A stretch of 64,000 bases of DNA from Streptomyces hawaiiensis (lineage in GTDB: Bacteria; Actinomycetota; Actinomycetes; Streptomycetales; Streptomycetaceae), in assembly GCF_004803895.1 (NCBI RefSeq), contig NZ_CP021978.1:6200001-6264000 (forward strand), written 5' to 3'. Shown piece after piece: positions 6,797-10,039 of the stretch. A program made the translations under genes and the position numbers. The notes below the pieces were generated by a model. The model saw only the letters and a program-made list of their open reading frames with translations. It did not search any database and was not told where the DNA came from. How positions within the stretch are numbered: position 1 is the stretch's first letter; every line of letters begins with the position of its first letter.

Positions 6797-9700
6797 ATGG
6801 ATCTCGTGCCCGCACTGGAAGAACCCCTGCGCCAACCGCTGAAGTCGGTGCTCGGCCCCGCCACCGCGAAGGTGATGGCCGAGCATCTCGGCCTGCTCAC
6901 CGTCGGCGACCTCCTCCACCACTACCCGCGCAGATACGAGGAGCGCGGCCAGCTCACCCACCTCGCCGACCTCCCCATGGACGAGCACGTCACGGTGGTC
7001 GCCCAGGTCGCGGACGCCCGCCTGCACTCGTTCGCCTCCGCCAAGGCCCCGCGCGGCAAGGGCCAGCGCCTGGAGGTCACGATCACGGACGGCAGCGGCC
7101 GGCTCCAACTGGTCTTCTTCGGCGCAGGCGTCCACAAGCCCCACAAGGAACTTCTGCCGGGCACACGCGCGATGTTCGCGGGCAAGGTCTCCGTCTTCAA
7201 CCGCCGCCTCCAACTCGCGCATCCGGCCTACGAGTTGCTGCGCGGCGACCCGGAGGAGTCCGTCGAGACCTGGGCGGGCGCCCTGATCCCGATCTACCCC
7301 GCCACCGCCAAGCTGGAGTCCTGGAAGATCGGCAAGGCGATCCAGACGGTCCTGCCCACGGCCCAGGAGGCCGTCGACCCGCTCCCGGACGGCCTGCGCC
7401 TGGGCCGCGGCCTGGTCCCGCTCCCCGAAGCCCTCCTCAAGATCCACCGCCCGCACACCAAGGCGGACATCGAGGACGCCCGCTCCCGCCTCAAGTGGGA
7501 CGAGGCCTTCGTCCTCCAGGTGGCCCTGGCCCGCCGCCGCCACGCTGACGCCCAACTCCCCGCCGTCCCCCGCAAACCCGCCCCCGACGGGCTCCTCACC
7601 GCCTTCGACGCCCGCCTCCCCTTCACGCTCACCGACGGCCAGCAGCGCGTCTCCCGGGAGATCTTCGACGACCTGGCCACCGACCACCCGATGCACCGGC
7701 TGCTGCAAGGGGAGGTGGGATCGGGCAAGGCCCAGCCCCTCGACTCGCTGGTCCTCACCCCCACAGGCTTTCGCCGCATGGGCGATCTGCGGGTCGGTCA
7801 GGAGGTGGTGGTGCCGGAGGGGGAGATCGCGCTGATCGACGGTGTCTTCCCGCAGGGAGAGCGCGACGTGTGGCGCCTCGTCCTGTCCGACGGGAGTTCC
7901 GTCGAGTGCGATGACGAGCACCTCTGGATCGTCGGTACCGGTCGCGGGTGGCACCGCGGCCAGGCACCCGAGGTCAGGACGACGCGGGAGATCCGTCTCG
8001 ACACCCTCAAGGCCGACGGTTCCCCGAAGTGGTACATCCCTGCGGCCAGGCCGGTCGATCTGGGCGGCGACGCCGGACTGCCCCTCGACCCGTACCTGCT
8101 CGGTGCGCTGCTGGGAGACGGCTCGTTCCGGCACGACCTCCGGCTCTCCACCATCGACGAGGAGATCCATGACGCGGTGGCAGCGGCAGTGGCGCCCTAC
8201 TGCCGGCTGGTACCGGTGACGGGAGGAGGACGCCACCACACGATCCAGCTCGTGGAGCGGACCGGAGGTGTGCGGAACCCCGTCATCCAGGCTCTGCGTG
8301 GACTGGGCCTGTGGGGAGCGGCGTCCCACGCCACATTCGTCCCGGACGATTTCAAGAACGCGTCGATCAAGGACCGTCTCGCCCTGCTGCAAGGGCTCAT
8401 GGACACGGACGGCACGGTCCACACCGACGACAGGGGCATCTCCCTGCGCTCTGCTTCACACCGGCTCGCGGAGGACGTCGCCTGGCTCGTACGTTCGCTC
8501 GGCGGGCGCGCACGGGTGCTCCCGGAGCAGGCCGCCTACACCGTGTCCGTGGCCCTGCCTGACGAGTACGCCCCGTTCCGGCTCACCCGCAAGGCCGAGC
8601 GCCTCCGTTCGCGGCCGAAGGACAACACGTTCCGACGTGGCATCCGGGCCGTGGAGTACGTGGGCCGCAAGCCCGTGCAGTGCATCAGCGTGGCCCACCC
8701 GAGCCGTGCGTATGTCACGGACAACTTCACGGTCACCCACAACACCATGGTCGCCCTGCGCGCCATGCTCGCCACCGTCGATGCCGGGGGCCAGGCCGCC
8801 ATGCTCGCGCCCACCGAAGTGCTCGCGCAGCAGCACCACCGGTCCATCGTCGAGATGATGGGCGAGCTGGCCGAGGGCGGCATGCTGGGCGGGGCCGAGC
8901 AGGCCACCAAGGTGGTGCTGCTCACCGGTTCCATGGGGACGGCCGCCCGGCGCCACGCCCTGCTCGACCTCACCACCGGCGAAGCCGGCATCGTCATCGG
9001 CACGCACGCGCTGATCGAGGACAAGGTGCAGTTCCACGACCTGGGCCTGGTCGTGGTCGACGAACAGCACCGCTTCGGCGTCGAGCAGCGCGACGCCCTG
9101 CGCGGCAAGGGCAAACAGCCCCCGCACCTGCTGGTCATGACGGCCACACCCATCCCGCGCACGGTCGCCATGACCGTCTTCGGCGACCTGGAGACCTCCG
9201 TCCTCGACCAGCTGCCGGCCGGCCGCTCGCCGATCGCCAGCCATGTGGTCCCGGCCGCCGACAAGCCCCACTTCCTGTCCCGCGCGTGGGAAAGGGTCCG
9301 CGAGGAGGTGGAGAACGGCCACCAGGCGTACGTCGTCTGCCCCCGCATCGGTGACGAGGAGGACGATGCCAAGAAGTCCGGCAAGAAGAAGCCGCCGGAG
9401 TCCCCGGAGGACGCCGCGGAGAAGCGCCCGCCCCTCGCCGTCCTCGACGTCGCCGAGCACCTGTCCAAGGGCCCCCTCCAGGGCCTGCGGGTCGAAGTCC
9501 TGCACGGCAGGATGCACCCCGACGACAAGGACGCAGCCATGCGCCGCTTCGCCGCCGGCGACACCGACGTCCTGGTCGCCACGACGGTCATCGAGGTCGG
9601 CGTCAACGTCCCCAACGCCACCGCCATGGTGATCATGGACGCCGACCGTTTCGGCGTCTCCCAGCTCCACCAGCTGCGCGGCCGCGTCGGCCGTGGCTCG

Positions 9701-10039
9701 GCACCCGGCCTGTGCCTCCTGGTCTCCGAGATGCCCGAGGCGAGCGCGGCCCGCCAGCGCCTCAACGCGGTCGCCTCCACGCTCGACGGCTTCGAACTCT
9801 CCCGCATCGACCTCGAACAACGCCGTGAGGGCGACGTCCTGGGCCAGGCCCAGTCGGGGGCCCGCACCAGCCTCAGAATGCTCGCGGTCATCGAGGACGA
9901 GGAGATCATCGCGGAGGCGAGGGAGGAGGCGACAGCCGTCGTGGCGGCCGACCCGGAGCTGACCGGCCTTCCCGGCCTGCGCACGGCTCTGGGCGCCCTT
10001 CTGGACGAGGAGAGAGAGCAGTACTTGGACAAGGGGTGA
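6797..10039 (+). CDS. recG: RecG branch-migration helicase, intein-containing precursor
   Basis: ATP-dependent DNA helicase that remodels stalled forks and Holliday junctions. Wedge/OB domain at about residues 60-160; the Walker A motif GEVGSGK is split after Lys311 by an intein, and the host sequence resumes with TMVALRAML. Then come DEQHRFG (DExH box) and the RecG motif region ending QLRGRVGRG. The precursor is 1,080 aa; removing 338 intein residues leaves 742, a normal actinobacterial RecG length. Without splicing the ATPase site would be broken, so activity should depend on it. ATG 6797 begins the conserved N-terminus; a GTG five codons upstream is the alternative. A dispersed repeat follows the stop. 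Confidence 0.96.
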   Translation: MDLVPALEEPLRQPLKSVLGPATAKVMAEHLGLLTVGDLLHHYPRRYEERGQLTHLADLPMDEHVTVVAQVADARLHSFASAKAPRGKGQRLEVTITDGSGRLQLVFFGAGVHKPHKELLPGTRAMFAGKVSVFNRRLQLAHPAYELLRGDPEESVETWAGALIPIYPATAKLESWKIGKAIQTVLPTAQEAVDPLPDGLRLGRGLVPLPEALLKIHRPHTKADIEDARSRLKWDEAFVLQVALARRRHADAQLPAVPRKPAPDGLLTAFDARLPFTLTDGQQRVSREIFDDLATDHPMHRLLQGEVGSGKAQPLDSLVLTPTGFRRMGDLRVGQEVVVPEGEIALIDGVFPQGERDVWRLVLSDGSSVECDDEHLWIVGTGRGWHRGQAPEVRTTREIRLDTLKADGSPKWYIPAARPVDLGGDAGLPLDPYLLGALLGDGSFRHDLRLSTIDEEIHDAVAAAVAPYCRLVPVTGGGRHHTIQLVERTGGVRNPVIQALRGLGLWGAASHATFVPDDFKNASIKDRLALLQGLMDTDGTVHTDDRGISLRSASHRLAEDVAWLVRSLGGRARVLPEQAAYTVSVALPDEYAPFRLTRKAERLRSRPKDNTFRRGIRAVEYVGRKPVQCISVAHPSRAYVTDNFTVTHNTMVALRAMLATVDAGGQAAMLAPTEVLAQQHHRSIVEMMGELAEGGMLGGAEQATKVVLLTGSMGTAARRHALLDLTTGEAGIVIGTHALIEDKVQFHDLGLVVVDEQHRFGVEQRDALRGKGKQPPHLLVMTATPIPRTVAMTVFGDLETSVLDQLPAGRSPIASHVVPAADKPHFLSRAWERVREEVENGHQAYVVCPRIGDEEDDAKKSGKKKPPESPEDAAEKRPPLAVLDVAEHLSKGPLQGLRVEVLHGRMHPDDKDAAMRRFAAGDTDVLVATTVIEVGVNVPNATAMVIMDADRFGVSQLHQLRGRVGRGSAPGLCLLVSEMPEASAARQRLNAVASTLDGFELSRIDLEQRREGDVLGQAQSGARTSLRMLAVIEDEEIIAEAREEATAVVAADPELTGLPGLRTALGALLDEEREQYLDKG
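7730..8743 (+). mobile_element. Class 3 intein with LAGLIDADG endonuclease in RecG P-loop
   Basis: In-frame 338-codon insertion between Lys and Thr of the RecG Walker A motif. It begins with Ala instead of the usual Cys/Ser and ends in Thr-His-Asn, with Thr as the first C-extein residue. Visible blocks: LTPTGFRRMGDLRVG (block A); DDEHLWIVG (block B, His64 and Trp66); LLGALLGDGSF and LLQGLMDTDGTV (the two LAGLIDADG helices, about residues 123-133 and 219-230); KPVQCISV (block F, Cys318); and FTVTHN (block G, Thr336, Asn338). Trp/Cys/Thr at these block positions with a non-nucleophilic first residue defines class 3 inteins, which splice through an internal Cys. Endonuclease acidic residues look intact, so it may still home. 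Confidence 0.93.

Follow-up and report, generated by a model that had tools for sequence, protein, structure and literature searches.

A predicted class 3 intein with an embedded LAGLIDADG homing endonuclease in the Walker A motif of Streptomyces RecG

The window analyzed in this study, a 64,000-nt stretch of the genome of Streptomyces hawaiiensis, carries a recG gene whose Walker A motif is interrupted by a long in-frame insert. This raises the questions of what kind of element the insert is, whether it may still splice and spread, and whether its position has a regulatory meaning. The evidence presented below indicates that it is very probably a class 3 intein that carries a LAGLIDADG homing endonuclease, lies between Lys and Thr of the Walker A motif of Streptomyces RecG and may undergo splicing and homing.

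Structure of the recG locus

The RecG ORF is located at positions 6797-10039 of the window (ATG at 6797, stop codon at 10037-10039) and comprises 1080 codons before the stop; this and all features described below are encoded by the forward strand. The identity of the protein is supported by the NCBIfam model NF008167, which matches it, with the insert present, in two stretches (1113.8 bits; cut-off 995). The N-extein (6797-7729; 311 aa) ends with the GEVGSGK residues of Walker A, whose GSGK part is encoded by GGA TCG GGC AAG (7718-7729). The insert (7730-8743; 338 aa, in frame) begins with a GCC codon (Ala1) at 7730 and ends with an AAC codon (Asn338) at 8741-8743. The C-extein (8744-10039, stop included) starts with Thr+1 (ACC, from 8744) and Met+2, the rest of Walker A. 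The residues at the junctions are GEVGSGK/AQPLDS...TVTHN/TMVALRAM, where the slashes mark the ends of the insert. An earlier note on this DNA had placed an intein between GSGK and T of the RecG Walker A motif at 7730-8743; these coordinates are exact at the codon level, and the 742 aa that it gave for RecG after removal of the intein agree with the 1080 codons less 338.

Splicing block B (residues 58-70, VECDDEHLWIVGT; 7901-7939) contains Cys60, Asp61, His64 (7919-7921) and Trp66 (7925-7927). The LAGLIDADG homing endonuclease domain spans residues about 113-292 (8066-8605). Its first LAGLIDADG helix (residues 121-131, PYLLGALLGDG; 8090-8122) corresponds to helix 121-130 of the structure model and carries the catalytic-type Asp130, while the second (residues 217-229, LALLQGLMDTDGT; 8378-8416; model helix 213-227) carries the catalytic-type Asp227. 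Block F (8672-8719) includes the putative branch nucleophile Cys318 (8681-8683), and block G (8720-8743) ends with Thr336-His337-Asn338.

Comparison of the intein part with Pfam revealed LAGLIDADG_3 (E 4.5e-7) and Hom_end (E 0.0025, below its cut-off), and comparison with NCBIfam revealed models of intein-bearing DnaB, RecA and GyrA, each far below its own cut-off. A phmmer search of the PDB detected gp41-1 inteins (3.5e-7) and class 3 DnaB inteins (7.2e-5). The genome is a single 8.88-Mb contig with one copy of recG; there is thus no further copy that would relieve the need for splicing. LAGLIDADG_3 matches this genome once, in the RecG intein. A candidate for a second intein (L002, E 0.0126) was rejected, since intein blocks were absent by eye and LAGLIDADG_3 matched once only.

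Class 3 signature and predicted fold

According to the published rule, class 3 inteins are distinguished by Trp at B:12, Cys at F:4 and Thr at G:5, together with the lack of an N-terminal nucleophile and Ser or Thr at +1 (PMC5222942), and they have a catalytic Cys-His-Thr arrangement (PMC7664689). The counterparts in the RecG intein are Trp66, Cys318, Thr336, Ala1 and Thr+1. Its block B, D61xxH64xW66, corresponds to the DxxH motif, which is also present in block B of the class 3 intein Msm DnaBi1, inserted in a P-loop (PMC6195587), and its end is Thr336-His337-Asn338. The earlier note had singled out His64, Trp66, Cys318, Thr336 and Asn338; all are at the positions that it gave and match the published signature.

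A1, Q2, P3, D61, H64, W66, C318, T336, H337 and N338 show no variation among the 70 RecG inteins of the genus sample, and Thr+1 follows at 70/70 junctions; the occurrence of the same ends and signature in each of the 70 occupied recG genes is far beyond chance. Removal of duplicates and of loci with short flanks reduced 244 RecG loci to 207, of which 117 are occupied. In these 117 distinct RecG inteins A1, D61, H64, W66, C318, T336, H337 and N338 are invariant (117/117) and internal stops were found in 0/117. H64, W66, C318, T336, H337 and N338 are also invariant in 36/36 sequences of a set of RecG and other, mostly viral, inteins; its 25 more distantly related members are 24 viral sequences and one sequence from a different actinobacterial genome. 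Among the 154 occupied RecG loci from all sources, duplicates included, 0 failed a screen for A1, a block B of the form [DE]xxHxW, a Cys located 21 residues from the end, and a THN end.

The structure of the RecG intein was predicted using AlphaFold2 from an input of 36 diverse sequences (mean pLDDT 94.0, pTM 0.92), which replaced an earlier run with 18 close sequences (pLDDT 55.9). PI-SceI is an intein with a LAGLIDADG endonuclease, and the whole model matches it over 324 residues (Z 27.1, rmsd 3.6). For the splicing domain, the first-ranking match among the single-domain inteins listed in the structure comparison is the class 3 intein of Msm DnaB (6bs8_C; Z 20.5, rmsd 1.5 Å, 123/125 residues); other class 3 DnaB matches are 6rix_B (Z 19.9) and 6riy_A (Z 19.8). 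The gp41-1 inteins come next, with values so close behind (Z 19.0 and 18.9) that matches differing by up to about one Z unit are best regarded as tied. The sequence-profile comparison was in agreement with the structural matches. The insert thus combines the W-C-T triplet, a position 1 residue that is not a nucleophile, Thr as the Ser/Thr+1 residue and, in the model, a HINT fold, i.e. the features of class 3 membership. The proposal that a class 3 intein splits the P-loop of RecG is therefore supported by its conservation, by agreement with the published signature and by a structure model of high confidence.

Occupied and empty sites

The RecG site was inspected in 392 genomes of the same genus, including that of S. 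hawaiiensis. It is occupied in 70 and empty in 319, whereas RecG was not found in three genomes (G001, G050 and G099) searched with the joined RecG region; occupancy among the resolved sites is 70/389. The empty sites comprise 204 with an uninterrupted EVGxGKTMVA pattern and 115 of the remaining 118 genomes, identified via the joined RecG region. The search for an empty site in relatives, proposed in the earlier note, thus yielded an uninterrupted recG in 319/392 genomes of the genus. Any relative of the intein (E <= 1e-8) was detected in 119/392 of these genomes, many of them in other proteins. Among 394 genomes sampled from the class, matches of >60% identity were found exclusively in the same genus. 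As for named genomes, every one of the best 80 of 472 loci is at the same RecG site, and the hosts of these 80 are 79 Streptomyces and one Actinacidiphila oryziradicis (L259). A full-length RecG intein is present in Streptomyces coeruleorubidus ATCC 13740. One genome of the genus contains, apart from an intact recG, a second RecG-like stretch (G196:C12:86756-87475; 58% identical) with an internal TGA.

State of the homing endonuclease

The 70 occupied sites of the genus sample contain 44 full-length inteins (336-339 aa) and 26 short ones (247-327 aa). In the latter, various parts of the endonuclease domain are deleted, differing between copies. A splicing residue or the reading frame was lost in 0/70. 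Asp130 is retained in 37 and Asp227 in 43 of the 44 full-length copies. Among 89 distinct full-length copies, both catalytic-type Asp residues are present in 71 and at least one is changed in 18, which means that full length does not equal activity. Both LAGLIDADG helices of the intein in the window retain the acidic residue (Asp130 and Asp227), in line with the observation of the earlier note that the two helices appear intact.

Pairwise dN/dS values, calculated for pairs with an extein pS of 0.02-0.35 and descriptive only because the pairs are non-independent, were as follows: for full-length copies (2355 pairs) 0.093 in the N-terminal splicing region, 0.158 in the endonuclease, 0.054 in the C-terminal splicing region and 0.142 in the extein; for short copies (119 pairs) 0.213, 0.408 (endonuclease remnant), 0.233 and 0.152, respectively. 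Judged from these ratios, the endonuclease is under constraint where it is whole and relaxed where it is broken, with the splicing residues retained throughout. This decay series corresponds to the homing cycle described in the literature (PMC7765530; PMC1654191).

Codon footprint and mobility

The +2 codon is ATG at 70/70 occupied sites of the genus sample versus 204/319 empty ones. The serine of GSGK is encoded by TCN in 68/70 occupied sites, and an AGY-serine pattern is matched by 105/319 empty sites. Fisher tests for the +2 and serine codons gave 1.5e-12 and 1.2e-8, values that ignore descent. The +2 effect holds in tree-independent pairs (8.4 with, 0.1 against, median p 0.008) from a subset with 30+17 empties, chosen to mirror the true ratio. 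The effect of the serine codon is weaker, both in the same subset (7.1 with, 0.8 against, median p 0.039) and with all 90 empties (6.9 with, 1.9 against, median p 0.18). Since the choice of serine codon is silent at the protein level, this bias points to DNA, and the bias at the junction codons suggests either a target preference of the endonuclease or co-converted flanks.

Occupancy is dispersed over the recG tree (207 tips), which includes 90 of the 319 empties, picked non-randomly by the search tools: it changes 45 times versus a shuffled mean of 67.7 (55-78, 200 shuffles), and the full/short state changes 13 times versus 25.3 (21-28). The intein and extein topologies of 55 full-length copies reject each other, and so do, in a control, those of the N-half and C-half of the extein; the drops in lnL are 430 with the other extein half versus 812 with the intein tree, and 195 versus 341. 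The tree conflict was therefore rejected as a clean proof of intein-specific transfer: the extein halves are also in conflict, with approximately half the lnL drop, and recombination of recG alone could explain part of the conflict between intein and extein. Synonymous distance was rejected as a clock as well. In filtered pairs it is about 1.8 times higher in the intein than in the extein, but GC3 differs between the two (0.81 vs 0.95), and the higher value is thus unreadable as age. Only in a few pairs is divergence distinctly lower in the intein than in the extein (e.g. L009/L211, 0.05 vs 0.22; L023/L234, 0.035 vs 0.14). Divergence profiles around the junction, in which a co-conversion gradient was sought in likely recent-transfer pairs, were noisy.

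Proposed mechanism and alternative explanations

The anatomy of the locus, its conservation, the empty sites, the decay of the endonuclease and the predicted fold were established directly, and the order of splicing steps would be that of the published class 3 chemistry. A single 1080-aa precursor would be translated, in which the intein adopts a HINT domain. Cys318, activated by His64, would attack the bond between the N-extein and Ala1 to form a block F branched thioester. The N-extein would pass to Thr+1, giving a block G branched ester, and cyclization of Asn338 would release the joined exteins, i.e. a 742-aa RecG with its P-loop restored. The homing endonuclease would enable the intein gene to invade empty recG alleles. 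Once this enzyme has decayed, the intein may persist as a splicing-only passenger, probably because its imprecise loss would break RecG. We infer that both splicing and homing occur in the S. hawaiiensis strain.

The chemistry might be of another type, i.e. that of a class 2 or other non-canonical intein, in which Thr+1 attacks directly and Cys318 is structural. Ala1 by itself fits class 2 (PMC7765530); however, 117/117 distinct RecG inteins carry the complete W-C-T triplet and the highest-ranking structural match among the single-domain inteins listed belongs to class 3, which makes this reading highly improbable. Class 2 membership (Ala1 without the WCT triplet) was rejected, since the triplet is found in all copies. 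There is also only a very slim chance that the intein has ceased splicing and that recG is in effect knocked out: no catalytic residue is altered in the intein of the window or in any of the 117 distinct copies, internal stops are absent from these copies, and the dN/dS of the extein beside full-length inteins (0.142) is unrelaxed.

A different role has to be considered if splicing is conditional. Oxidation could link Cys318 to Cys60, or modify Cys318, and RecG would be inactive until the cell is reducing, which would constitute a repair switch. Cys60 is present in 114/117 distinct RecG inteins and in 32/36 sequences of the wider family, no column besides those of Cys318 and Cys60 exceeds 75% Cys in the 117 distinct inteins, and the class 3 intein Msm DnaBi1 is under redox control through a Cys48-Cys118 disulfide that holds the protein in its precursor form (PMC6195587). 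On the other hand, the position of Cys60 differs from that of Cys48 of Msm DnaBi1, Cys60 is common to phage inteins and may therefore be structural, and 319/392 congeners live without the intein. We consider such a switch rather unlikely. A broader combined reading, which is distinctly improbable, would be that the RecG inteins of Streptomyces represent an ongoing homing cycle, from empty sites via intact and point-mutated endonucleases to those deleted step by step, that occupancy is determined by the codons at the insertion point (TCN serine, ATG at +2), and that copies with a dead endonuclease are retained as a Cys60/Cys318 redox switch on RecG. The splicing-controlled repair envisaged in the earlier note is an idea and not a finding, and its basis here is limited to the insertion site.

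As a class 3 intein with a homing endonuclease, the RecG intein itself belongs to a known element type, of which it is a clearly marked representative. Table 1 of a review from 2018 names RecG among the intein-containing proteins of Eubacteria, in a passage that gives no class, site or species (PMC5874633). The presence of an intein in RecG, which the earlier note considered notable, was thus borne out, but the host had already been listed. No dedicated study of the RecG intein was found among CC-licensed PMC papers. The points of interest are how complete the natural series is and that the target bears a codon footprint: in one gene, at one site and in one genus, empty, full and progressively deleted forms occur side by side. 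This makes the homing cycle, and a possible regulatory role of the decayed intein, directly testable in cultivable Streptomyces. As candidates for new class 3 inteins, the shortened RecG inteins may also be of use in protein engineering.

Relatives, possible origin and comparison with known inteins

In a tree of 47 rows, nine RecG inteins share one branch (SH-aLRT 97). Beside it are the inteins of Rhodococcus (L353), a virus (L327) and a helicase of another actinobacterial genome (L178; called SNF2-like on the basis of its context, with Helicase_C as the sole Pfam match), all placed among viral inteins. It is plausible that a phage or plasmid helicase was the source of the RecG intein. A phage origin was reportedly proposed by Tori and Perler. 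Relatives of the RecG intein were detected by tblastn in 656 phage records, and they are also encoded by at least 592 stretches of viral contigs, out of 600 that were selected by pattern. With class 3 assigned from the residues of those inspected, these numbers run counter to the statement of the earlier note that class 3 inteins are few.

Related inteins were also observed in other proteins. TraD, the coupling protein of the conjugative IncC plasmid pKAZ5 (KR827394.1, L358), contains a full-length intein in GSGK/T, with Ala1, HLW, a block F Cys and THN/T, and tblastn located inteins of this type in Enterobacter, Citrobacter and Klebsiella plasmids (H45-H48), without a listed gene. Two related class 3 type inteins (L061 in G090 and L065 in G128) are found in a large type IV coupling-like ATPase, outside the P-loop.

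The intein of Rhodococcus rhodochrous WP_217580321.1 (L353, plasmid NZ_CP120357.1) is 45% identical to the RecG intein and occupies the same insertion point (RLLQGDVGSGK/AQPL...THN/TKVAL); it has all signature residues and an endonuclease domain. Its host is, as judged from the flanks, a plasmid-borne RecG-like helicase, in contrast to the chromosomal recG of Streptomyces; the protein is annotated as a 'helicase-related protein', and its gene adjoins that of a tyrosine recombinase. The class 3 type inteins of viral helicase-like proteins at GxGK/T (e.g. L273, L275, L278 and L281; 35-44% identity) share with the RecG intein the AQPL...THN/T ends, the W/C/T residues and LAGLIDADG motifs, but their hosts are phage proteins and not RecG.

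The inteins of PhoH-like ATPases of actinobacteria resemble the RecG intein in Ala1, HLW, the block F Cys and THN/T. They differ in their site (YMRGR/A...N/TLN), which is not a P-loop, and form a separate clade (SH-aLRT 100). This second class 3 type family (about 337-360 aa, THN/TLN) is widespread in actinobacteria (L059, L060, L064, L180-L191), and class 3 inteins of Mycobacterium PhoH have already been published (PMC6195587).

The mycobacterial class 3 DnaB inteins (Msm DnaB-1/DnaBi1, Mle and Mch DnaB-1; PDB entries 6bs8, 6rix and 6riy) have in common with the RecG intein the WCT triplet, a DxxH block B, Ala1, a penultimate His, an Asn end and the P-loop position. The fold of the splicing domain in the RecG intein model is also like theirs (Z 20.5, rmsd 1.5 Å), with an identity of about 30% over this domain. 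They differ in the host protein, DnaB, and in Ser+1 (PMC6195587), and those whose structures have been solved are mini-inteins without an endonuclease.
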